From Halorussus rarus (GTDB lineage Archaea; Halobacteriota; Halobacteria; Halobacteriales; Haladaptataceae), in NCBI RefSeq assembly GCF_003369835.1, contig NZ_QPMJ01000003.1:434001-498000 (forward strand): DNA of 64,000 nt, in the 5' to 3' direction. The notes under the pieces were generated by a model that ran no database searches, had not been told where the DNA came from, and was given only the letters and a program-made list of their open reading frames with translations. The position numbers and the translations under genes are program-made. Numbering within the stretch: the stretch's first letter is position 1; the number at the start of each line of letters is the position of its first letter. Positions 40,881 through 57,982 of this stretch are shown here, one piece after another.

Positions 40881-40905
40881 ACGATCCATTTTCGGCCCTG
40901 TCCGG

Positions 40906-40912
40906 CTTAAAA
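40906..40912 (-). promoter_or_regulatory. TATA-like box of trpB
   Basis: TTTTAAG on the minus strand, centred about 29 nt upstream of the ATG at 40880. Confidence 0.5.
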
Positions 40913-40944
40913 CACACTCTCCCGTACACCTTACTTCCGTCCGC

Positions 40945-41316
40945 TCAGCCGAGCATCAGGCGGACGTTGTAGACGGTGAAGAACACGCCGAACAGCAGCA
41001 GGACGAGCGGAGCGAAGTAGTAGACGAAGCGATCCCGCCACACGCGGACCGCGTAGAAACTGAGGCCGAAGCAGACGGCGAACACCAGGAGCTTCGCGCC
41101 GACCAGCCCGCCGAGACCGAACCGGCTCAAAAGGCGTGCGAGCAGCGGGTTCCCCTCCGCGACGACCGGGTGGTACCGCACGAGTGCGATGGTCGTGACC
41201 ACGTCGCCGACGCCGTAGCCGCTGGTCGCCGCGATCCACAGCCAGACGAACTCCCGGTAGGTCGTCGCTGCGCGTTCGAGCGAGAGGGGGTGAGTAGGTG
41301 GTAATCCGTCGGTCAT
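40945..41316 (-). CDS. Small multi-span membrane protein (DUF5658-like)
   Basis: A 123-residue protein with three to four hydrophobic segments: about 22-47 (EFVWLWIAATSGYGVGDVVT), 68-90 (LGGLVGAKLLVFAVCFGLSF) and 98-120 (VYYFAPLVLLLFGVFFTVYN). A GDVVTTIALV...NPL pattern between the first and second helices resembles the DUF5658 membrane proteins, as far as I can judge. Function is unknown. The start at 41316 is chosen because the upstream part of the long frame is Arg-rich and lies antisense to nothing recognisable; the gene follows the DUF7344-type regulator by 23 bp on the same strand. Confidence 0.68.
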   Translation of the reverse strand: MTDGLPPTHPLSLERAATTYREFVWLWIAATSGYGVGDVVTTIALVRYHPVVAEGNPLLARLLSRFGLGGLVGAKLLVFAVCFGLSFYAVRVWRDRFVYYFAPLVLLLFGVFFTVYNVRLMLG

Positions 41317-41339
41317 TGTGGGGTCCTCGGCGCGTCCCG

Positions 41340-41948
41340 TTACCGGTCCCTCGCCGGTTCCTCGATGTCCGGGACGTCCGGCGGCGACCCCTCCCCGCCG
41401 AGCCGGCGCTTCCGGTCGTAGTAGGTGTCGACCGCGCCCGACGCGACGAGCGCCGCGACGCACAGGCCCGCCCAGGCCATGTCCGGGAGCATGTCGAACG
41501 GGACGATGTCGACGTAGGCCACGGTCAACAGCGCCGCGCACACCGCTCCCAGCCCGAGGTAGTACTCGCTGCGGGGAATCTCGGATTCGGGCACGACGTC
41601 GAGGTAGAGTTCGACGTCCGCCATCCCCTCGCTCGGCCTGACGACCCCGCGGTCGGCGTCGAAGTCGACGACGCCGACCTCGTCCATCTTCGGCAGGTGG
41701 CTCTGCCGGAGCGCTGTGTACACCCGCCGGCGCTGGTCGTGGGTGATCGCGGCCGGCGGATCCTCGTTCTCCCACGCCGCGAGGTGGGTCGACAGCTCTC
41801 GGAGTTCGACCGGCCGGTCCTGCTGCCGGAGGTAGTGGACGACGTGGCGGCGGCGCTGGTTGCTCACGATCTCGAAGATCTCGTCCCGCGTCGGCTCGTC
41901 GGCCTCGGTCTCCTCCGGAGAACGTGTTTGTTTGCCACCCACTGACAT
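41340..41948 (-). CDS. DUF7344-type winged-helix regulator with two membrane helices
   Basis: A 202-residue protein. The N-terminal half is a winged helix typical of DUF7344: TRDEIFEIVSNQRRRHVVHY, then LRELSTHLAAWEN and THDQRRRVYTALRQSHLPKM with EVGVVDFDADRG as the wing. Two hydrophobic segments follow (about 129-150 and 160-180), so the regulator is predicted to sit at the membrane with the DNA-binding domain in the cytosol. It is transcribed away from the TasA-like cluster across a 281-bp spacer and is the obvious candidate regulator for it. ATG 41948 is the family start. Confidence 0.85.
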   Translation of the reverse strand: MSVGGKQTRSPEETEADEPTRDEIFEIVSNQRRRHVVHYLRQQDRPVELRELSTHLAAWENEDPPAAITHDQRRRVYTALRQSHLPKMDEVGVVDFDADRGVVRPSEGMADVELYLDVVPESEIPRSEYYLGLGAVCAALLTVAYVDIVPFDMLPDMAWAGLCVAALVASGAVDTYYDRKRRLGGEGSPPDVPDIEEPARDR

Positions 41949-42229
41949 ATCGTTAGGCTGTCTCTACAGACACATAAGCCTGACCTACGTATCATATAAT
42001 GTTTACATACGAAAGGTCGGTTCGTGATGGCGAACTCGTGGTTTCGAATCGAACCGGTCCAGTACCGCGATTCAGGCGGTGCCTGACGGCCTGTATAGAA
42101 CTCCTGACTCGATGTCAGAGGGTGTATACGTCTCTACAGGGTCGACCTGCTTACCCGTCAACATCTGAATATATGGAGTGGATGCTGGATAAGGTGTGAG
42201 TGACGACGGGCGACCGTCGTGGAACAACT
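41949..42229. promoter_or_regulatory. Divergent control region of the DUF7344 gene and the TasA-like cluster
   Basis: Contains a palindrome TGTCT-CTAC-AGACA (41959-41972), a CATATAATG TATA-like box (41992-42000) inside a GTAT...ATAC inverted pair, a second AT-rich CTGAATATATGG (42165-42176), and a direct repeat of GTCTCTACAG at 41960-41969 and 42130-42139. The final 27 bp before the first subunit gene hold a perfect hairpin ACGACGG-GCGA-CCGTCGT (42203-42220). The 66-codon frame at 41999-42199 is basic, lacks a domain and is not called. If transcription starts after 41992 the leader is over 200 nt, unusual for this host. Confidence 0.6.
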
Positions 42230-42805
42230 ATGACCGAAGACGACAACAGCGGATTCGACCTGTCGCGGCGCAAGGTACTGGGAGGACTCGTGACCGTCGG
42301 CGCTGCGTCCGCGGCCACGGGCGCAGGGACGATGGCCTACTTCAGCGACACCGAGAGCAGTGAGGGTAACACCGTGTCCGCAGGGACGCTGAACCTCAAG
42401 GTGAACGGGCGGGACGACATTAGTACTGCACCCGTGAACGTTTCTGGAGTCGCACCTGGCTGGTCCAAGTCCATCCCTCTCGATCTGTCGAACGACGGTA
42501 CGGTCGGTGGAGACCTGTACCTCAAGTTCGACGTCACTGGGAGCAACGATGGAGATGGTGACAGTCAGGGTCTCGAAGACGACCTTGACCTAACTTGGAA
42601 CGTGGACAACGGTGGTTCGGGGAGTATCGACCTCACTAATGCCCCGACCAACTGGCAGGACACCGGCCAGGACATCGGTGGTAGTAGCAACGTCACCGGG
42701 GATATCGGACTCGAACTTCCGACCAGTGTCGGTAACGAGGCCCAGGGAGAGAGTGCGACTATCGACGTCTACATGAAGCTCGTCCAGAGCGGCGGCTCCC
42801 CCTAA
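42230..42805 (+). CDS. TasA/CalY-like surface fibre subunit 1 (SipW-type signal)
   Basis: A 191-residue exported protein, the first gene of the cluster. The N-terminus has a twin-arginine-like LSRRKVLGGL (11-20), a hydrophobic Ala/Gly segment and the SipW-type boundary AYFSDTESSEGN (36-47), where cleavage is expected at the YFSDTE box. The mature part begins TVSAGTLNLKVNG and continues as an all-beta fold with spaced short Asp/Gly-rich strands, ending in a SATIDVYMKL strand, the pattern of the TasA/camelysin family. Such proteins polymerise into extracellular fibres in Bacillus and in archaeal bundling pili. This is the shortest of four paralogues and has only the single domain. Confidence 0.83.
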   Translation: MTEDDNSGFDLSRRKVLGGLVTVGAASAATGAGTMAYFSDTESSEGNTVSAGTLNLKVNGRDDISTAPVNVSGVAPGWSKSIPLDLSNDGTVGGDLYLKFDVTGSNDGDGDSQGLEDDLDLTWNVDNGGSGSIDLTNAPTNWQDTGQDIGGSSNVTGDIGLELPTSVGNEAQGESATIDVYMKLVQSGGSP

Positions 42806-42838
42806 CAGACTCCGTTCCCCCACGGGAGCATTCCAATC

Positions 42839-43537
42839 ATGTTCGACGACGACAGTAGCGTGTCACTGACCCGGCGACGCCTCCTCGGCGGCCTGGTCGC
42901 GATCGGCGGGGCCGGAGCAGCGTCAGGTGCCGGCACGTTCGCGTACTTCAGCGACACCGAGAGCAGCACCGGAAACACCATCGACGCCGGGACGCTCGAC
43001 CTGACGGTCAGTGACAGCGGCGCAGACTTCAGTGACGGCGTGTCGGGGACGTGGACCATCTCGAACGCCAAACCCGGCGACTCGGTGCTGGGCGACCTCA
43101 CGCTCCGGAACGAGGGGTCGCTGTCGTCCGACCACGTCGAGATCAGCTTCGCCGTCGACGAGAGCGAGGCTGGCGGTTCCACCGGTGCAAACGAAGCGGA
43201 CACGATGCCATCGAGCGCCGAGGGGATGGCCGAGCAGTTCGAGGTGACCGTGTTCACCTACAACGGCACCAACGTCCTCCAGAACCTGTCCGACGCCAAT
43301 GGGAACGGCATCGTGGACATCGGGGACGTTGTGAGCGGGAACGATGGGGCGCTCGACGACCTCACGTCCCTGCCGAGTGACAGCCAGGCAACCGAGTCGA
43401 TGATGCTGGAGTTCCGGTGGGCCCACGATTCGGAGTTCGATAACTCCGTCTCCGGGACGAACAACGACTACCAGGGCGACGAGTTCGACCTCACGGTCAC
43501 CTTCGCCCTCCACCAGGACTCCGGCCAGGACTTGTAG
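42839..43537 (+). CDS. TasA/CalY-like surface fibre subunit 2
   Basis: A 232-residue paralogue of the preceding gene. The signal has LTRRRLLGGL (10-19), a Gly/Ala hydrophobic segment and the box AYFSDTESSTGN; the mature protein begins TIDAGTLDLTVSD. The body has a TasA-like layout (VSGTWTISNAKPGDSVLGDL, LRNEGSLSSDHVEI) and ends with a DEFDLTVTFALHQ strand. A DANGNGIVDIGDVV segment (about 159-172) is reminiscent of a calcium-binding dockerin or EF-hand-like loop. The start ATG at 42839 follows a short GC-rich hairpin-like run and the context AATCATG that recurs before the other members. Confidence 0.83.
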   Translation: MFDDDSSVSLTRRRLLGGLVAIGGAGAASGAGTFAYFSDTESSTGNTIDAGTLDLTVSDSGADFSDGVSGTWTISNAKPGDSVLGDLTLRNEGSLSSDHVEISFAVDESEAGGSTGANEADTMPSSAEGMAEQFEVTVFTYNGTNVLQNLSDANGNGIVDIGDVVSGNDGALDDLTSLPSDSQATESMMLEFRWAHDSEFDNSVSGTNNDYQGDEFDLTVTFALHQDSGQDL

Positions 43538-43648
43538 CAACTGACACCCGACAGGGTGTCTTCGACCCTCGCGGGTAGCACGCCCTCGCGGGCGTCGGCG
43601 GTTCGACTCCGCCGGTGGGCCCTCCCCGAGCGGGGGATTCGGCAAACC
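43538..43648 (+). promoter_or_regulatory. Structured spacer before subunit 3
   Basis: Four successive hairpins: GACACCC-GACA-GGGTGTC (43543-43560), GCCC-TCGC-GGGC (43582-43593), the T-arm-like GGCGG-TTCGACT-CCGCC (43597-43613) followed by GGTGGGCCC, and TCCCC-GAGCG-GGGGA (43623-43637). The last one lies 11 nt before the ATG and its 3' arm GGGGGA is the only Shine-Dalgarno-like sequence, so folding would hide it. Confidence 0.7.
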
Positions 43649-44938
43649 ATGTCAGACAAGAACATCGACCTTTCGCGACGGAAGGTTCTGGGTAGCCTCG
43701 GCGTCATCGGCGTGGCGAGCGCCGGCGCCGGCGCGGGGACGTTCGCATACTTCAGTGACACCGAAAGCAGCACGGGGAACACGATCAGTGCGGGAACGCT
43801 GAACCTCACTGCCGACGGGAACGACGGATCGGCGACGACTACGGTCAGTGTCGACGACGTCGCGCCTGGGGAGACCGGCAGCGATTCGACGACGTTGGTG
43901 AACGCGGGCAGCGTCAGTGGATATCTGAATTTCGACGTCGCTCCCATCTCCAATCGAGAGAACGGTGTCATCGATCCCGAGGAAGGTTCCTCCGGCGAAA
44001 ACGGGGGCGACCCGGGCGAACTCGGCGCCGTCCTCGATGTCAGATACGGGTTCGACACGACCGGCGACGGGGCCATCGACGTGCCCGTCGTCGACACGAC
44101 CGACAAGCCCTACGAAGCGGTCGAACGGACCGGAGGTGCCGAGTACAATCCGAACCTCCCGTTGTCGGCCAACGGCGGTAGCGCGGACTTCGTCGTCGAC
44201 TGGGCACTCCCGTCCGACGCCGGGAACGCCGTACAGGGCGACGGCGTGGAATTCGACGCCACCTTCGAACTGCTACAGGAGCCCGCCGGGAGCGACGTCG
44301 TTCTCACCGGCAACTCCCCGTATAGCGACGCGAAGGGCTTTCCGGGGAGCTTCGCCCCCGAGTCGGCGGAGAGTCGCGTCGGAGCCGGGTCGTGGCAGGC
44401 CACGACATCGGGACAGGAAGGGTTCTACTTCGGCGGTAAGTTCTCCGGCTATCACGCGCTGCCGACGTTTACGGTCGGCGACATCGCCGAACTCGGCTAC
44501 TGGATGAACCACTCGAACAGCCAGGTGGAGTCGGACTTCTTCCTCCAGATATTCACCGCACCCAAGAACGACGGGACCGACTTCGGTAGCTTCTACAACG
44601 CACGGCTGACCGCGGTTCCGCCGGAGGCCAACGATGGGAATCCTTCGTGGACCCCGGACGAGTGGAACGAGTTCTCGACCGACCCGTCGGCCGACAATCA
44701 ACTCTACTTCTATCTGGAGGACAACCAGACCGTCTCGACTACTCCCCGGACTCTCCAGGACCTGCAGACCAACCCATTCACTCACGACGGCACCGATTAC
44801 GGGCAGTCCACTGACGAGGTGTTCGCCGTCGCGGTCCTCACGAACAGCAAACAGACCGAGTTCGAGGGACACCTCGACGACATCAACCTCGAACTCACTT
44901 CCGGACAGGGGAGCCTGTCTATCGACCTCGAACCCTGA
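43649..44938 (+). CDS. Two-domain TasA-like surface subunit 3
   Basis: A 429-residue paralogue with the same signal (LSRRKVLGSL at 8-17 and the AYFSDTESSTGN box). Residues about 40-215 form the TasA-like domain (TISAGTLNLTADG to DGVEFDATFELLQ). A second domain (about 220-429) contains EGFYFGGKFSGYHALPTFTV, ESDFFLQIFTAPK, DEWNEFSTDPS and a final HLDDINLELTSG strand. The same second domain occurs in the next gene but not in subunits 1 and 2. Its all-beta, aromatic-rich pattern suggests a lectin- or carbohydrate-binding-like sandwich displayed on the fibre; that is inference. The ATG at 43649 fits the MSDKNIDLSRRK N-terminus shared with the next gene. Confidence 0.82.
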   Translation: MSDKNIDLSRRKVLGSLGVIGVASAGAGAGTFAYFSDTESSTGNTISAGTLNLTADGNDGSATTTVSVDDVAPGETGSDSTTLVNAGSVSGYLNFDVAPISNRENGVIDPEEGSSGENGGDPGELGAVLDVRYGFDTTGDGAIDVPVVDTTDKPYEAVERTGGAEYNPNLPLSANGGSADFVVDWALPSDAGNAVQGDGVEFDATFELLQEPAGSDVVLTGNSPYSDAKGFPGSFAPESAESRVGAGSWQATTSGQEGFYFGGKFSGYHALPTFTVGDIAELGYWMNHSNSQVESDFFLQIFTAPKNDGTDFGSFYNARLTAVPPEANDGNPSWTPDEWNEFSTDPSADNQLYFYLEDNQTVSTTPRTLQDLQTNPFTHDGTDYGQSTDEVFAVAVLTNSKQTEFEGHLDDINLELTSGQGSLSIDLEP

Positions 44939-45036
44939 TGCGGCGCGCCGAGACGACAGTCCGACCCACGCGCGGTCGCCTCCGCGGCGGTTCGACTCCG
45001 CCGGTGGGTCCTTCCCCGAACGGGGAGTGAAAAATC
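44939..45036 (+). promoter_or_regulatory. Structured spacer before subunit 4
   Basis: A T-arm-like hairpin GGCGG-TTCGACT-CCGCC (44986-45002) is followed by GGTGGGTCC; an outer pair GACCCAC (44963-44969)/GTGGGTC (45004-45010) can close it into a two-stem structure. A second hairpin CCCC-GAAC-GGGG (45014-45025) includes the Shine-Dalgarno-like GGGGAGTGA, 11 nt from the ATG at 45037. Confidence 0.72.
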
Positions 45037-46287
45037 ATGTCGGACAAGAACATCGACCTCTCGCGGCGGAAGGTCTTGGGCGGTCTGGGAGTGATCGGCG
45101 TGGCGAGCGCCGGCGCGGGGGCCGGAACCTTCGCGTACTTCAGCGATACGGAGGAGAGCACCGGAAACACCGTGAGTGCTGGGACGCTCGATCTGACACC
45201 CGACGGCTCTAGCGTCGAGACGTTCACGGTCTCCGACGTCAAGCCGACCGACTCCGGGACGGAAGCGATCTCGCTGTCGAACGCCGGTAGCCTTCCGGGC
45301 TACCTGAACGTCGGCGTGTCCCTGACTGCGGACGAGGAGGGGCAGGTCCGCGAGCCCGAGCCGGACTCCGACGACGCCACGTCCGGGGAACTGGCCGAGA
45401 ACATCGACGTCGAAATCGGCCTGGATTCGGACGAGGACGGGAGTATCGATACGTCTCTGGCAGACGCGGACCTCGCGGGCGTCGCGGGACTCGCCGGCGC
45501 GAAGTACAACCCGAACCACGAACTCGCGGCGAGCGGAAGCGGGAACGACGACGTCGACTTCGTCTTCGACTGGTCGGTACCCGCGTCGGTCGGCAACGAG
45601 ATTCAGAGCGATTCGTTCACGGCCGACTTCACGTTCGAGCTCCTCCAGCAGCGGGCGAACGCGGACCTGGTCCTCACAGGCGACTCCCCGGCGATCGCGT
45701 CGGGGGAGAACCCGCTGCTGACCTCCTCGGATGCGAAGTGGGGCGACGGCTCCTGGACGAACGACTCCGGGAAGCACGGCCGGCTCTACTTCGGCGGTGA
45801 GTTCTCCGACTTCCACTCGCTTCCCGAGTTCACGGTCGACGAGATCGCGTCCATCAGCTACCACACGAAGAAGAGCCAGTCGTTCGACGCGAACGACCAC
45901 GACTTCTTCCTCCACATCTACACGACGAAGGCGAGTTCGTCGAGTCCCGACGGGTGGTACGGTAAACGGCTCACTGCGCTCCCCAAGTACGCGGCGAATC
46001 GGAACGCACCGGCCGGCCAGTGGAACGAGTGGCAGACGGAGAGCGGGACGAACCAGTTGCAGTTCTACGACAAGAACCGAAGTAACGCGAGCGAGAGCGT
46101 CCCGCTTTCCGAAATCCAGTCGGGAAGCGTGACCTGGTCGAGTTCGGGCGAGACCGTCGACTACGGCGGGATGACCGTTCGGACGCTCTCGGTCACCGCC
46201 GACAACGTCTCGTTCGACAGCAGGGTCGACGCTGTCGGACTGGAACTGACTACCGGCGAGTCGCTCACTATCGACCTCGAACCGTAG
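45037..46287 (+). CDS. Two-domain TasA-like surface subunit 4
   Basis: A 416-residue close paralogue of subunit 3: the first 16 residues are nearly identical (MSDKNIDLSRRKVLGG), followed by the AYFSDTEESTGN box and a mature start TVSAGTLDLTPDG. The TasA-like domain ends near TADFTFELLQQ (about 205). The second domain repeats the subunit 3 pattern: RLYFGGEFSDFHSLPEFTV, HDFFLHIYTTKA, QWNEWQTESG and a final VDAVGLELTTGE strand. The second domains are more diverged than the first, as expected for an exposed adhesin-like part. It is probably exported and processed by the signal peptidase encoded three genes downstream. Confidence 0.82.
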   Translation: MSDKNIDLSRRKVLGGLGVIGVASAGAGAGTFAYFSDTEESTGNTVSAGTLDLTPDGSSVETFTVSDVKPTDSGTEAISLSNAGSLPGYLNVGVSLTADEEGQVREPEPDSDDATSGELAENIDVEIGLDSDEDGSIDTSLADADLAGVAGLAGAKYNPNHELAASGSGNDDVDFVFDWSVPASVGNEIQSDSFTADFTFELLQQRANADLVLTGDSPAIASGENPLLTSSDAKWGDGSWTNDSGKHGRLYFGGEFSDFHSLPEFTVDEIASISYHTKKSQSFDANDHDFFLHIYTTKASSSSPDGWYGKRLTALPKYAANRNAPAGQWNEWQTESGTNQLQFYDKNRSNASESVPLSEIQSGSVTWSSSGETVDYGGMTVRTLSVTADNVSFDSRVDAVGLELTTGESLTIDLEP

Positions 46288-46435
46288 CGACCGCGGCGCC
46301 GACCCGCCCACGTAACGCGCTCGAACGGGCGCCGGTGGTTCGACTCCGCCGGTGGGTCCTCCCTTCGTGGGAGACCAGCGGTCTCAGTCCCCGTCACCCG
46401 TCTGAGCGAACCCAACAACCGAGACATCACGAATC
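46288..46435 (+). promoter_or_regulatory. Structured spacer with the third copy of the conserved element
   Basis: Copy three of the T-arm-like hairpin, GGTGG-TTCGACT-CCGCC (46334-46350) plus GGTGGGTCC, then a CTCCC-TTCGT-GGGAG hairpin (46359-46373). The context AATCATGTCGG at 46432-46442 matches that before subunits 3 and 4, although here the following frame is short. Confidence 0.65.
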
Positions 46436-46588
46436 ATGTCGGAATCCGCCGAAGACGCAGCGTCGATGGTACGGTCGTCAGTCCTCCGTCTCGCGGTCCT
46501 CACCGGACGACGAGACGCTACTCGATCCGATTTGACGAGAACGAACGACCGCGGTCCCGCTCGCTCGGGTGGTCACCGTGCTCCGTGA
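46436..46588 (+). CDS. Possible 50-residue ORF with a TasA-gene-like start context
   Basis: The ATG at 46436 has the same AATCATGTCGG context and upstream conserved element as the subunit genes, but the 50-residue product (MSESAEDAASMVRSSVLRLA...) is basic and lacks the twin-Arg/YFSDTE signal. It ends in TGA at 46586-46588, overlapping the GTG start of the next gene by 20 bp. It could be a translated coupling leader, the relic of a subunit gene interrupted by rearrangement, or noise. Confidence 0.28.
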   Translation: MSESAEDAASMVRSSVLRLAVLTGRRDATRSDLTRTNDRGPARSGGHRAP

Positions 46589-47963
46589 ACTGCTCGCCCG
46601 ACTGACCAAGATGGGCGCTCGCCAGACGGTCCTCGTTGTGCTCATCACTGGAACCGTCGTCGCCGGGGCCGGGTTCGGTCTCGCCGGCACTCTCACCGAC
46701 GATTCCCCCGAACCGACGCCGACTGCGACGCCCACCCCGACACCTCCGGACCCGACGGTCACTCCGCAGCAGACCGCGACACCGACGACCATCGAGCAGA
46801 CGACGGCAACTGCTCCGACCGACGGCGATACCGCCGACGATGACGACGACCCGACCGCGACGACCCGAACGACTACCACCGGGACAACCACTACGCCCGC
46901 AACACCGAACGCCACCCTGGCTCTGTCGGCGTCGGACCCGCCCGCGGTCAGCACCGAGGACGGGTCGGTCGAGCGCGTCGCCGGGAACCTCACCGGAACT
47001 CTCGACTGGACCGCGGGCTCGAACGCCACCAGCGTCACCCTCGTCGTCCAGACCTGGACGCCGGACTCCGAGTGGCGCGAGTCCCGCCGGGTCACCGTCG
47101 CTCCGAACGGGACGACGCTGGCCGTCGAGGACGCCCTCGGCGGTTCCGAACTGGTCTACGCCGCGGGCGAGCGCGCCGGCGAGTTCGCCGTCGGCGAGGA
47201 CGGCGCGACCGCGACCCGCGAGGGGTACGTCTCCGTGACTGCGGTGCTGTTCGGACCGAACGGGACCGAACTCGCCCGGAACTCGACCGCCGACGAGTAC
47301 GCCTTCAACGTGACGAACCAGGAGGAGAGCAACTTCTTCGCGTTTGGCGACTCCGGAACGACAACGACGGACGACACCCACCCGTCGCTACGCCTCGGCG
47401 GAGACGGCGAGGATCCGACCGTCCTCCGCGTGACGAACGCCGTCCCCGGCGGCTCGGGCCACGGACGGGTCTCGGTCACGAACACCGGCGAGGACGGGGG
47501 CGTCCTCCGGGTAACCGTCGAGAGCGTGTCGGACGAGGAGAACGGGTTCACCGAGCCCGAGCGCGAGGTCGACGACTCGCCGTCGACGGGCGAACTCGCC
47601 GAAGCGCTGGACGTCCGGATGAAGCTCGTCGACGAGGACGGCGAGACCGTCCAGTACCTGGCCGGCGGCGAGTCCTCCTACGCCTCGCTCGCCAGCCAGT
47701 CCGACCGGACGATGACTCCCGACACCTCGCTCGACAGCAACGAGACGGTCCGGTTCGTCGCGGAGTGGCGCGTCGACGCGTCGGTGGGCAACGAGATCCA
47801 GAGCGACTCCGTGACATTCGACCTCGACTTCACCGTCCTCGACGATGACGACGTCTCCCAGCGTCTCGATTCGCCGTCGGAAGTCGCCTCGGGTACACGG
47901 GCTAATGGCATGAAAAATGATAATATTGGTCGCGGTAGTAGTACGAACGAGGTGACGGCGTGA
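46569..47963 (+). CDS. Membrane-anchored protein with Thr/Pro stalk and C-terminal TasA-like domain (TapA-like candidate)
   Basis: A 464-residue protein. A hydrophobic segment (about 20-40, VLVVLITGTVVAGAGFGLAG) acts as anchor or signal; it lacks the YFSDTE box. A Pro/Thr-rich stalk (about 45-115) follows. Residues about 115-235 look like an Ig/FxLYD-type beta domain (VTLVVQTWTPDSEWRESRRV). Residues about 255-435 resemble the TasA-like domain of the subunits: TVLRVTNAVPGGSGHGRVSV, STGELAEALDVRMKL and DASVGNEIQSDSVTFDLDFT. This suits an accessory or basal fibre protein, like TapA in Bacillus. The start is GTG at 46569; GTG 46578 or ATG 46611 are alternatives. Confidence 0.75.
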   Translation: MVTVLRELLARLTKMGARQTVLVVLITGTVVAGAGFGLAGTLTDDSPEPTPTATPTPTPPDPTVTPQQTATPTTIEQTTATAPTDGDTADDDDDPTATTRTTTTGTTTTPATPNATLALSASDPPAVSTEDGSVERVAGNLTGTLDWTAGSNATSVTLVVQTWTPDSEWRESRRVTVAPNGTTLAVEDALGGSELVYAAGERAGEFAVGEDGATATREGYVSVTAVLFGPNGTELARNSTADEYAFNVTNQEESNFFAFGDSGTTTTDDTHPSLRLGGDGEDPTVLRVTNAVPGGSGHGRVSVTNTGEDGGVLRVTVESVSDEENGFTEPEREVDDSPSTGELAEALDVRMKLVDEDGETVQYLAGGESSYASLASQSDRTMTPDTSLDSNETVRFVAEWRVDASVGNEIQSDSVTFDLDFTVLDDDDVSQRLDSPSEVASGTRANGMKNDNIGRGSSTNEVTA

Positions 47964-48523
47964 TGGAGGGAAAACAGTCGCTCACCCGGATCGCGGCCCT
48001 GGTAGGGGTCGTGGTCGTCGTCGCCGCCTTCGCGAGCGGCGCGTACACCTACGGGCTGCTGTCCGACCGCGAGGACGGGTCGGTCTCCATCGAGGCCGCC
48101 GGGAACTTCTCCGATACCGCTACGGCGACTCCCGGCGGAAGTGTCTCTGAACTGAGTGAGGCTCCGAACAGCGATACCACCGCTTCGGACGATTCGACGG
48201 GCGAGGCGACCACTACGGCGGTCACTCAGACGGAGAAAACGACCGAGACTACGACAACACCGACCGAAAACACGACTACTACGACAACCACCGAGACCAC
48301 GACGACGAAGGATACGACTACTACGTCAACGACGACCGGTACCACCACGACGACTGGGACACCTACAACGACAGAGGACACCACGACGAAAACTGAGACG
48401 ACGACCGAAACCACGACGGACACGACAACGACGACCACTGAGACCACTACCACGACCGAAGCGACGACGACTACGACCGAGCCGACGTCATCTCCCACTT
48501 CCACGACGACCTCCAATCCATAG
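47963..48523 (+). CDS. Membrane-anchored Thr-rich surface protein
   Basis: A 186-residue protein. One hydrophobic segment (about 7-31, ALVGVVVVVAAFASGAYTYG) is followed by GLLSDREDGSVSIEAAGNFS, which resembles a degenerate TasA signal/mature boundary. From about residue 65 the sequence is almost entirely Thr with scattered Glu, Lys and Ser, a probable O-glycosylated stalk. The ATG at 47963 overlaps the preceding stop as TGATG, so translation is coupled. It may tether fibres or span the S-layer; no domain identifies its function. Confidence 0.7.
   Translation: MEGKQSLTRIAALVGVVVVVAAFASGAYTYGLLSDREDGSVSIEAAGNFSDTATATPGGSVSELSEAPNSDTTASDDSTGEATTTAVTQTEKTTETTTTPTENTTTTTTTETTTTKDTTTTSTTTGTTTTTGTPTTTEDTTTKTETTTETTTDTTTTTTETTTTTEATTTTTEPTSSPTSTTTSNP
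48165..48520 (+). repeat. Low-complexity ACN-rich (Thr-codon) tract
   Basis: About 350 bp of near-continuous Thr codons with interspersed GAR and AAR codons, encoding the Thr-rich stalk. The tract is lower in GC than flanking coding DNA and is prone to slippage. The minus-strand Val-rich frame opposite it is an artefact. Confidence 0.85.
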
Positions 48524-48533
48524 TCACTGACAT

Positions 48534-49094
48534 ATGAACCGAGAAACCCTCCGAGACACGCTAAGCGCATCGTCGATGAACCGCCGGAAAGCACTCCGAG
48601 TGCTCGGGCTCGTCGTCCTCGTCGCCCTCGTCGCCCCCTTCGTCGTCACGGCCGTGCCGCAGGTCGTGGGCGCCGACGCGAGCTACGTGGTGCTCTCCAG
48701 CAGCATGTCGCCGGCCATCCACGCCGGCGACGTGGTCGTCGTGAACGACGTCTCGCCCGCCAACGTCGAGGAGGGCGACGTCGTCACCTACCAGCCCCCG
48801 TCGGGTCACCAGCTCGCGGACGTGAACCGCGTGACCCACCGGGTCGTTGGGGTGACCAGTCGGGACGGCGAGCGCCACTTCCGGACGAAGGGCGACGCCA
48901 ACGAGGAGGCCGACGCCGCGCTCGTCCCCGCGTCGAACGTCGAGGGTCGGGTCATGTTCCACATCCCGTTCGTCGGTCGCGTCGTCTCGTTCGCCCAGTC
49001 GTCGCTCGGACTCCTCCTGCTGGTCATCGTGCCCGGCGCCCTGCTCGTCGTCTCGGAGCTCTACGACCTCTACGTCGCGGCGACGGAGGGCTGA
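48534..49094 (+). CDS. Type I signal peptidase (SipW/archaeal type)
   Basis: A 186-residue membrane serine protease. An N-terminal helix (about 22-46) precedes the catalytic SSSMSP (Ser 57 in the SMxP motif). VTHRVVG supplies His 102 in place of the bacterial Lys, and TKGDANEEAD carries Asp 121, the Ser-His-Asp arrangement of archaeal/ER signal peptidases to which SipW also belongs. A C-terminal helix (about 156-180) makes a second span. As the last gene of the cluster, 10 bp after the Thr-rich gene, it is the likely dedicated processing enzyme for the YFSDTE-type signals of the four subunits. Confidence 0.88.
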   Translation: MNRETLRDTLSASSMNRRKALRVLGLVVLVALVAPFVVTAVPQVVGADASYVVLSSSMSPAIHAGDVVVVNDVSPANVEEGDVVTYQPPSGHQLADVNRVTHRVVGVTSRDGERHFRTKGDANEEADAALVPASNVEGRVMFHIPFVGRVVSFAQSSLGLLLLVIVPGALLVVSELYDLYVAATEG

Positions 49095-49140
49095 CGGTCA
49101 CTGCGCCGTATGATCGATTCTCGTCGTTTGGTATTCGGCG

Positions 49141-50451
49141 TCAGGCGACGTTCCGCTCCTCGAGCAGGTCGCCGCGCTCGAACCGGTCGCTCCCGAGCGC
49201 CGAGACGTCGACCAGCGACGCCTCGCCGTCCAGCACCAGCTCGGCGACCAGCTGGCCGGTCGCGGGCGCGTGCTGGAAGCCGTGGCCCGAGAACCCCACC
49301 GCCTGAACGAACCCCGGCACGGTCTCCTCGACGATGGGGTGGTGGTCGGGCGTCACGGCGTAGAGCCCGGCCCAGCCCCGGCGGAGTTCGGAGTCGGGGC
49401 CGAAGTAGGTCGCGCAGTCGCCCGCGCGCTCGACGGCCTCGGCGGCCCAGTCGAGGTCCATCTTGCGGTCGAAGCCGTCGGGGTCCCGGTTGGGGTCGGC
49501 CCCTCCACCGGTGTCGCTCGCGGGTCGTTCCTCCCCGTCTGCTCGCGGGCTCTGCCCGCTTGCACGGTCCGAGGAACGGGGTTCCTCGCTCTCGAAGTGT
49601 CCGCCGACCAGCGCCGCGCCCTCGCGCTCGGGCCGGAAGTGCGACCCGGTGTCGAGGTCGATGGTGAGGGGCACGTCCTCGGGGACCGGCGTCTCGGGGT
49701 CGACGACGGCCATCTGGCGGCGCTTCGGTGCGACCGGGATCTCGACGGCCGCCATCGCGGCGACCCGGCGCGCCCACGGGCCCGCGGCGTTGACCACGAA
49801 GTCGACGTCGCGGCGTTCGCTTCCGAAAGACTCGCTCCGCTCGTCTTTCGACGTTCGAGAGGCGTCGCTTCTCTCACCGTCGGCAGTCACGCCGGTCACG
49901 GCGTCGTCGCTCGCCCCGGTACCGCGTTCGCGGTGGATGGCCGTCACGTCGGTCTGCGTCAGAATCTCGGCGCCGGCCTCGCGGGCGGCCGCGGCGAACC
50001 CCTGGAGCGCGAGGTGCGGGTCGGCGAACCCGTCGGTCGGCGAGTAGGTCGCGGCCACGAACTGGTCGGCCCGGAGCCCGGGGCAGTGCTCGGTCGCCTC
50101 CTCGGGGTCGAGCAGGACGCTCGGGACGCCCCGGTCGTTCTGCATGGCGACCTGCTCCTCGAACGCGCGTGCGGTCGCCGGCTCGCGGGCCGCGAAGAGG
50201 TAGCCCGGCCGACGGTAGGCGATGTCGGTGCCGAACGTCGACTCGAACGACTCCCAGACGTCCATGCTCTCCAGCGAGAGGTCGACGTTGACCGGCGTGG
50301 AGAACTGGGCGCGGATGCCGCCCACCGACCGCTCGGTGCTGCCGTTTCCCAGCGACCCCTTCTCGTAGACCGTGACGTCGGCCCCGCGCTCGGCCAGGTA
50401 GTAGGCGCTCGCGAGCCCCACGATGCCGCCCCCGACGACTGCGACGTCCAT
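49141..50451 (-). CDS. FAD-dependent oxidoreductase (DadA/glycine oxidase-like)
   Basis: A 436-residue flavoprotein of the DAO family. The N-terminal motif VAVVGGGIVGLASAYYLAE (4-22) binds FAD, with VTVYEKG as the ribose-contacting strand; VVNAAGPWARRVA is the second FAD segment and a C-terminal GFSGHGFQHAPATGQLVAEL closes the fold. It probably oxidises a D- or N-methylated amino acid; substrate unknown. Two hydrophilic insertions, SDASRTSKDERSESFGSERR and a longer EPRSSDRASG-type stretch, interrupt the fold; the first is encoded by a perfect palindrome (49824-49850) of the intergenic repeat type. ATG 50451 fits the family start. Confidence 0.87.
   Translation of the reverse strand: MDVAVVGGGIVGLASAYYLAERGADVTVYEKGSLGNGSTERSVGGIRAQFSTPVNVDLSLESMDVWESFESTFGTDIAYRRPGYLFAAREPATARAFEEQVAMQNDRGVPSVLLDPEEATEHCPGLRADQFVAATYSPTDGFADPHLALQGFAAAAREAGAEILTQTDVTAIHRERGTGASDDAVTGVTADGERSDASRTSKDERSESFGSERRDVDFVVNAAGPWARRVAAMAAVEIPVAPKRRQMAVVDPETPVPEDVPLTIDLDTGSHFRPEREGAALVGGHFESEEPRSSDRASGQSPRADGEERPASDTGGGADPNRDPDGFDRKMDLDWAAEAVERAGDCATYFGPDSELRRGWAGLYAVTPDHHPIVEETVPGFVQAVGFSGHGFQHAPATGQLVAELVLDGEASLVDVSALGSDRFERGDLLEERNVA
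49824..49850. repeat. Palindromic element inside a coding sequence
   Basis: CGAAAGAC (49824-49831) and GTCTTTCG (49843-49850) are perfectly complementary around the loop TCGCTCCGCTC. The stem-loop has the same loop type as the intergenic palindromes (GAGCGGAGCGA on the other strand). It lies in frame in the FAD oxidoreductase gene and encodes a charged, Ser-rich linker. Confidence 0.75.
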
Positions 50452-57644: not shown

Positions 57645-57718
57645 GGGTCCGTGGTCTAGTTGGTTATGACGCGGCCTTTACAAGGCCGAAGTCGGTGGTT
57701 CGAATCCGCCCGGACCCA
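57645..57718 (+). tRNA. tRNA-Val (anticodon TAC)
   Basis: A complete 74-nt cloverleaf: acceptor stem GGGTCCG/CGGACCC, D-arm with GGTCTAGTTGG, anticodon stem CGGCC/GGCCG around the loop TTTACAA (anticodon TAC), and T-arm GGTGG/CCGCC-type stem with loop TTCGAAT. Discriminator base A at 57718; CCA is not encoded at once (CCACC follows the stem). No intron. Confidence 0.95.
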
Positions 57719-57723
57719 CCTCT

Positions 57724-57982
57724 GACGGCGTAACGGCGACGAGCGCAGCGAGGAGCCTACGCCGTCGAATGGTCTTTCGAGGATTCGAAACAAGGAGTGG
57801 AGCGTAGCGGAACGACCGTGGTTCGAATCCGCCCGGACCCATAGATTCTGACTACGAACGAAGTGAGCAGTCGAATCTCTGACGGGAGGGCGATTCGAAC
57901 CCTGCGAGTCGCAGCCCGCACAGCCGAGCGAAGCGAGGCGAGCAGGACCGTCTCGCCCCGGTGAGAATCCGCCCGGACCCAC
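57724..57982. repeat. Palindromes and two partial copies of the tRNA-Val 3' end
   Basis: Behind tRNA-Val lie a 9-bp hairpin GACGGCGTA (57724-57732)/TACGCCGTC (57758-57766) with a GAGCGCAGCGAG loop, then a 24-nt exact copy of the tRNA 3' end (57818-57841), a GATTC-GACT/AGTC-GAATC hairpin (57844-57877) with loop GAACGAAGTGAGC, and an 18-nt copy (57965-57982). The 57890-57981 stretch resembles 59215-59304 behind tRNA-Phe. Confidence 0.8.

Follow-up and report, generated by a model that had tools for sequence, protein, structure and literature searches.

What does a haloarchaeon build from four adjacent genes for TasA-like proteins, and how could one transcript supply their products in unequal amounts? 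The question is raised by a cluster in a 64,000-nucleotide stretch of Halorussus rarus (contig NZ_QPMJ01000003.1, positions 434,001 to 498,000; hereafter the window, whose numbering is used throughout). An earlier note, made from the sequence letters, had described it as an archaeal TasA-type fibre operon with its own signal peptidase. Our analysis indicates that the cluster is probably an acquired module for surface fibres, of the type that gives Bacillus biofilms their cohesion, with tRNA-like processing elements between its genes. More novel, and overlooked by the earlier note, is the conserved tRNA-mimic leader that precedes haloarchaeal fibre genes. The cluster consists of the following genes:

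41340-41948, minus strand: HTH, divergent regulator with a DUF7344 winged-helix domain (PF24035, 106.7 bits) and one C-terminal transmembrane segment (residues 131-149)
42230-42805, plus strand: T1, TasA/camelysin-family subunit with a twin-arginine translocation (Tat) and SipW-type signal, SRRK...GTMAYFSDTE (PF12389, 35.5 bits; TIGR04088)
42839-43537, plus strand: T2, TasA/camelysin-family subunit (PF12389, 54.3 bits, residues 29-230; NF046066 TasA, E 4.5e-12)
43649-44938, plus strand: T3, TasA domain and a C-terminal beta-rich domain of the T4C type (PF12389, 37.2 bits; 48% identity to T4)
45037-46287, plus strand: T4, TasA domain (residues ~50-205) and a C-terminal domain (211-416) common to T3 (PF12389, 47.1 bits; AlphaFold2 model)
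46569-47963, plus strand: M5, N-terminal membrane anchor (residues 21-39), Pro/Thr-rich stalk, Ig/FnIII-like domain and C-terminal TasA-like domain (39% identity to the T4 body)
47960-48523, plus strand: M6, signal/transmembrane segment, SipW/donor-strand-like motif YGLLSDREDGSVSIEAAG and Thr-rich tail (from sequence)
48534-49094, plus strand: SIP, archaeal/endoplasmic reticulum-type signal peptidase I, SipW-like, with Ser57-His102-Asp121 (TIGR02228, 113.7 bits; NF046067, 105.6 bits)

All genes lie where the earlier note had placed them. T1 starts at the ATG at 42230, the listed GTG at 42200 being probably too early; T3 starts with ATG, and M5 has an alternative ATG start at 46611. The M5, M6 and SIP genes overlap or abut, and 281 nt separate T4 from M5. 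A short, unassigned open reading frame in this gap before M5 (46436-46568, beginning ATGTCGGAATCC) may be due to chance.

Three copies of a tRNA-like element lie between the genes, scored here with a core covariance model (R1):

43581-43621, plus strand: T3 element (R1, 40.3 bits; repeat families D5/D7)
44963-45010, plus strand: T4 element, with a 7-bp acceptor stem GACCCAC/GTGGGTC, variable arm and T-arm (R1, 37.3 bits; fold)
46301-46358, plus strand: T4-M5 element, with an 8-bp acceptor-like stem GACCCGCC/GGTGGGTC, variable hairpin and T-arm (fold, -30.3 kcal/mol; R1, 24.7 bits at 46318-46358)

The element folds into an acceptor-like stem that runs on into a T-arm bearing the canonical T-loop UUCGACU, with a C-rich/G-rich hairpin after it. 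It thus shows the stacking of acceptor stem and T-arm expected of a t-element, with an imperfect acceptor stem in the T3 copy. In the T3 copy, the T-arm reads CGGCGG-TTCGACT-CCGCCG (43596-43614), and a CCCC/GGGG hairpin (~43623-43637) stands just before the start codon. The T4 copy is followed by the hairpin TTCCCCGAACGGGGAG (45012-45027), likewise ahead of the start codon, and the T4-M5 copy by a CTCCC/GGGAG hairpin that extends to 46374. The leaders of T3, T4 and M5 have CGGYGGTTCGACTCCGCCGGTGGG in common. Where copies are compact, the two stems are joined by 8 nt that include an invariant GG and possibly mimic a D-loop.

Allowing up to three mismatches, the element occurs three times in the 4.37-Mb genome, each time in this cluster, and never in the reversed control. 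With R1, the T3 and T4 leaders are the two best matches in the genome, and the M5 leader comes fourth with a weak score. No Rfam 15 family matched above its gathering score, the best being tRNA-Sec with 20.1 bits against 47 (T4-M5 element), and sigma-70 and terminator scans yielded nothing useful.

The element is conserved well beyond this genome. It occurs in the leaders of TasA-family genes at related loci in Halorubrum, Halobellus, Haloarchaeobius and others. In a defined set of 226 T genes, the 150 nt upstream contained the element in 80 cases, compared to none of 226 internal control windows, and 42 of 52 loci carry at least one copy. The distance from the T-stem to the start codon has a median of 31 nt over the 80 copies, 70 of which have a CCC..GGG hairpin in between. 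To assess covariation, T-stem pairs were counted in copies selected for no more than the closing pair. In the set preceding a signal sequence, the pairs are mostly Watson-Crick and of several types (pair 3: GC 72, AT 26, GT 9, CG 6, TA 3), while element-like matches without such a signal downstream pair about half the time. In 16 copies of equal length (alignment A7), the two-stem structure is paired in 95% of cells; it has 14 double changes (shuffles: 4.3), and its covariation score is 0.231 compared to 0.123. As pairing was part of the selection of this set, the T-stem pair-type count is the fairer test. The equal-length subset was used for these counts because the MAFFT alignment with variable linkers (A6) misaligned the 5' strand.

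The covariance model matched in 69 of 194 genomes. Where the downstream gene was read (57 matches), it was a TasA-family gene in 26 cases and a gene for a DUF1102-type Tat protein with a GTGAFTSV signal in 13, the rest being mixed. Two further ones, L151 and L166, have a DUF1102 match in Pfam. The presence of elements before DUF1102-type genes suggests that DUF1102 proteins are a second, possibly related, fibre family. Elements before DUF1102-type genes whose Tat signals end in GTGAFTSV are found at L153, L156, L158, L159, L162, L168, L170 and L178.

What such an element might do is indicated by Haloferax. There, tRNase Z cuts the t-element, a minimal tRNA-like structure that lies upstream of the 5S rRNA (PMC4326828), and both RNase P and tRNase Z accept t-elements as substrates (PMC4326828, PMC4946936). 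The elements described here have the acceptor/T-arm geometry needed by these two enzymes. By analogy, a polycistronic mRNA would be cut by tRNase Z and RNase P at the elements between T2 and T3, T3 and T4, and T4 and M5. If the cut fell 3' of GTGGGNN, the downstream message would begin with a hairpin, located at the ribosome-binding site for T3 and T4, and the separation of cistrons would set the subunit ratios. We regard it as an even chance that mRNA-borne tRNA mimics are dedicated, conserved haloarchaeal intercistronic processing signals for TasA/DUF1102 fibre operons, setting fibre composition through separately stable and separately translated messages.

The main rival to cistron separation is translational control, with element and hairpin together masking or exposing the ribosome-binding site of each subunit gene in the manner of a switch, to which a tRNA-binding protein perhaps binds. 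The hairpin found in 70 of 80 leaders at a nearly fixed distance would suit such a switch, as would its GGGG(A/G)TGA arm, which resembles a Shine-Dalgarno sequence. We know of no archaeal tRNA-like translational switch, and t-element processing in haloarchaea is documented in the work on Haloferax. In addition, the T4-M5 copy begins 13 nt after the T4 stop codon and ~250 nt before the M5 start, a location that suits processing better than purely translational control. Given this location and the likeness to t-elements, cistron separation is favoured, and a switch is possible but on balance unlikely.

As the earlier note had claimed, T1 to T4 are paralogues that carry an AYFSDTE signal and a TasA/camelysin-like body: the motif is present in all of them, all pass the cut-off of the "cognate_SipW" model TIGR04088, and all exceed the curated cut-off of 22.5 bits for PF12389 (Peptidase_M73/camelysin), of which they are the sole members in the genome. 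T3 and T4 are similar over their whole length, and T1 and T2 resemble T4 mainly in signal and body. T2 scores 46 bits against the Bacillus TasA equivalog NF046066, under the cut-off of 450, and is not a close match to Bacillus TasA; it is nevertheless the cluster member nearest to that protein and the best candidate for a plain shaft subunit. Each T signal also has a twin-arginine motif ahead of its hydrophobic segment, which the earlier note overlooked. R10 and R11 are invariant in 18 haloarchaeal T-family proteins, where the Bacillota relatives have KK, and these signals point to export via Tat. The N-terminal donor-strand motif is conserved across the T family, and assembly by donor-strand exchange is predicted.

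Comparison with solved structures leads to the same family. Searched against the PDB, a profile of the haloarchaeal family matched TasA (E 3e-16 and 5e-16) and AbpX, an archaeal protein (E 1.5e-3). In the AlphaFold2 model of T4, made from an alignment of 42 relatives, the TasA domain has a predicted local distance difference test (pLDDT) score of mostly 80-95. Its best solved matches are TasA structures (5of1, Z 9.2; 8aur, Z 9.1; 5of2, Z 9.0), which superpose with a root-mean-square deviation of 3.2-3.4 A over 138-147 residues. The T4 body is thus predicted to form the TasA-like beta-sandwich that the earlier note had anticipated as a jelly-roll. Foldseek gave the TasA fibre as the only match below 1e-3. 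AbpA of Pyrobaculum (7ueg) comes fourth, with a Z of 7.2 (3.7 A over 125 residues) that is within 1 of unrelated sandwiches.

The Pfam name of the family, a camelysin metallo-endopeptidase, could instead suggest that T1 to T4 act as secreted proteases of camelysin type or as surface proteins in monomeric form. We consider this quite improbable: HExxH is missing from all four proteins, for which reason the protease reading was rejected, the structural neighbours TasA and AbpA are fibre subunits, and a multi-paralogue cluster with an anchor, a processing peptidase and a partner that has a donor-strand motif and no TasA sandwich fits assembly. A viral origin was likewise rejected, since neither the T family nor the T4 C-terminal domain, each used as query, had relatives in viral contigs. 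The C-terminal domain of T3 and T4 has no Pfam match and no solved relative by sequence, and its model is of low confidence. By its sequence distribution, it appears to be a mobile extracellular domain not covered by Pfam. It is found by itself in a haloarchaeal protein secreted through Tat (L129), in a protein that is unrelated in other respects (L133), and in fusion with TasA domains in several genomes (L127, L130 and L131 among the loci).

The remaining genes supply candidates for anchoring, initiation and processing. M5 matches the membrane-anchored protein with a TasA-like domain that the earlier note had proposed, having an N-terminal transmembrane segment and the region similar to the T4 body. 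It has no Pfam match and has an orthologue in a related cluster of the same genus (L035, E 4e-157); its AlphaFold2 model shows an Ig/FnIII-like and a TasA-like domain. M6 is indeed the Thr-rich anchored protein of the earlier note, which overlooked its own SipW-like motif, YGLLSDRED, directly after the hydrophobic segment. The motif is of the same kind as in T1 to T4, and M6 has no TasA sandwich. About fifteen haloarchaeal loci have a gene for a protein of M6 architecture after the peptidase gene, and in most of them the start codon of one overlaps the stop codon of the other. SIP exceeds the TIGR02228 cut-off of 51.85, and its motifs SSSM, THRV and KGDAN (at 55, 101 and 119) hold the proposed Ser-His-Asp residues. 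With a score below the NF046067 cut-off of 190, it is a relative of Bacillus SipW and not the Bacillus equivalog. The HTH protein, with its DUF7344 domain and transmembrane segment, corresponds to the divergent membrane winged-helix regulator previously proposed; in most haloarchaeal loci, DUF7344 relatives lie next to the TasA-family genes, and the protein is likely the regulator of the cluster.

A fibre could be assembled from these parts as follows. T1 to T4 would leave the cell through Tat and be cut by the SipW-type peptidase just before YFSDTE. The cut would free an N-terminal strand to occupy the groove of the following subunit, as it does in TasA and AbpA, and by homology T1 to T4 would thus form fibres. 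T2 and T1 are candidate shaft subunits, T3 and T4 would bring the extra surface domain, and M5 is a candidate for the fibre base. M6, with its donor-strand-like motif and Thr-rich tail, may start or cap the fibre in the manner of the TapA N-terminal peptide.

The gap of 281 nt with a tRNA-like element between T4 and M5, whereas M5, M6 and SIP overlap or abut, could also mean that the T genes do not work together with M5 and M6, and that M5-M6-SIP is a separate unit with SIP as a general signal peptidase. This appears very improbable, as M5 has a TasA-like domain and two other S26 matches in the genome are available for general duty. SIP is the strongest of three TIGR02228 matches in the genome, and the only strong one. 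With only three matches in the genome, a peptidase would lie within 8 kb by chance in ~1% of loci; it accompanied TasA-family genes at 57 of the 71 loci, bacterial ones included, which bears out the claim that the cluster has a signal peptidase of its own.

The chromosomal context indicates that the whole cluster is probably a horizontally acquired insertion of ~8 kb. The spacing between trpB (left) and a gene for a flavin adenine dinucleotide (FAD) oxidoreductase (right) is 61 bp in one congener (G005), ~500 bp in two others (G014 and G016) and 8.25 kb here, the gap (40889-49141) being filled by the cluster and a small membrane-protein gene. The GC (guanine-cytosine) content is 65% in the cluster and 70% outside. 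The sole congener with a closely similar cluster (G009, locus L035) has it elsewhere, beside ATP-binding cassette (ABC) transporter and trehalose-synthesis genes. The empty sites in congeners, the different site in G009 and the lower GC content together mark the module as accessory and probably acquired. tRNA T-arm sequences are common integrase targets, the leaders and signal regions of T1 to T4 are repeated, and the cluster is itself an insertion; even so, a role of the repeats at the level of DNA and not of RNA, as integrase targets or as tracts where recombination shuffles paralogous subunits, is the least probable of the explanations considered: the leader copies all lie in sense and at a fixed distance to the start codon, their stems show compensatory changes, the T-loop is invariant, and an integrase gene was not noted within the cluster. 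Elsewhere in the window, the 3' part of tRNA-Val (GTGGTTCGAATCCGCCCGGACCCA; gene at 57645-57720) is repeated ~100 nt downstream of the gene (57819-57842), as left by a tRNA-integrated element.

The gene set recurs in many other haloarchaea, as the earlier note's reading required. PF12389 matches were found in 86 of 292 genomes of the class, in 30 of 77 genera, and camelysin-family genes were absent from all 13 non-Bacillus control genomes. The locus scan was seeded with a narrower alignment instead of the wide alignment A1 and is biased to proteins with an AYFSD signal; within this limit, it gave 71 loci in other genomes, with an S26 peptidase in 57, a DUF7344 regulator in 50 and more than one TasA-family gene in 59. 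The usual haloarchaeal order is a divergent regulator, three or four large T genes, a T of 250-300 residues, the last T and the peptidase. Bacterial and Aenigmatarchaeota loci have T genes and peptidase without the regulator. Paralogues elsewhere contain a vWA domain within the TasA body, PKD repeats or other domains, consistent with the earlier view of an elaborated system with adhesin-like second domains. The vWA insertions (L037:7260-8912, L039:6366-7829, L055:6401-7858) recall the vWA tip adhesins of Gram-positive pili. In the subfamily of 250-300 residues (e.g., L055:11364-12236), the RR signal is kept and the YFSD motif is lost (example SWNQYTSYTYA).

Several observations weigh against an acquired fibre module with processing elements, in addition to the selection of A7 mentioned above. 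For the RNA element, the acceptor-like stem of the T3 copy is imperfect, and the T4-M5 copy scores weakly (24.7 bits) and is unlike the other copies in lying ~250 nt from the next start. In the nearest syntenic cluster (L035), tRNA-like elements are absent, which shows that they are not essential to the module. For the proteins, the donor strand in this cluster is more polar than that of TasA. The T4 model has an overall mean pLDDT of 59, with the C-terminal domain below 50 over most of its length, so that only the TasA domain is well modelled. The M5 model matches TasA (Z 8.6) no better than unrelated folds, and Foldseek puts other beta-sandwiches first; the TasA-like domain of M5 is better supported by its sequence similarity to T4. 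Even with these points, we hold the acquired surface-fibre module to be the likely reading: family membership, predicted fold and gene content support the interpretation of the earlier note, and fibre formation is a prediction from them.

These results suggest the TasA/AbpA donor-strand fibre as a recurrent, accessory and domain-rich haloarchaeal system. Across many genera, an RNA element absent from Rfam ties such fibres to tRNA mimicry in mRNA leaders. The elements are candidate natural mRNA substrates of archaeal tRNase Z and RNase P, and they make testable the question of how one transcript gives unequal amounts of fibre subunits in archaea.

Among known systems, the Haloferax volcanii t-element is similar in being a minimal tRNA-like structure inside a longer transcript. 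In contrast to it, the elements described here separate protein-coding genes and precede members of the TasA and DUF1102 families, carry a hairpin at the ribosome-binding site and are conserved across many haloarchaea, with processing as the proposed role. To our knowledge, neither Tat signals nor extra domains nor tRNA-like leaders are known from the Bacillus cereus sipW-calY1-bc_1280-calY2 operon, which is similar in having several camelysin paralogues together with SipW (gene order from PMC10151520). With the tapA-sipW-tasA operon of Bacillus subtilis, the cluster has in common a jelly-roll subunit, a matching signal and N-terminal strand, a dedicated SipW-type peptidase and accessory protein(s). 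The parallel drawn by the earlier note applies to content and logic and fails for gene order, as here the subunits come first and the peptidase last. The cluster also differs in its four paralogous subunits, two of them with an added domain, in Tat instead of Sec signals, in the anchored TasA-domain and strand-only proteins that replace TapA, and in the intergenic tRNA-like elements and DUF7344 regulator. In Bacillus, TapA residues 44-57 suffice for biofilm (PMC10151520). The TapA N-terminal peptide is a strand that starts TasA assembly, and M6 likewise has the strand motif without a TasA sandwich; it differs in having a Thr-rich tail and no Ig domain, and its role is a proposed one. Finally, AbpA and AbpX of Pyrobaculum calidifontis are archaeal subunits with the TasA fold. 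They belong to another phylum, and the solved subunits have 163-180 residues, whereas Halorussus rarus combines a multi-paralogue cluster, a peptidase, anchors and two-domain subunits.

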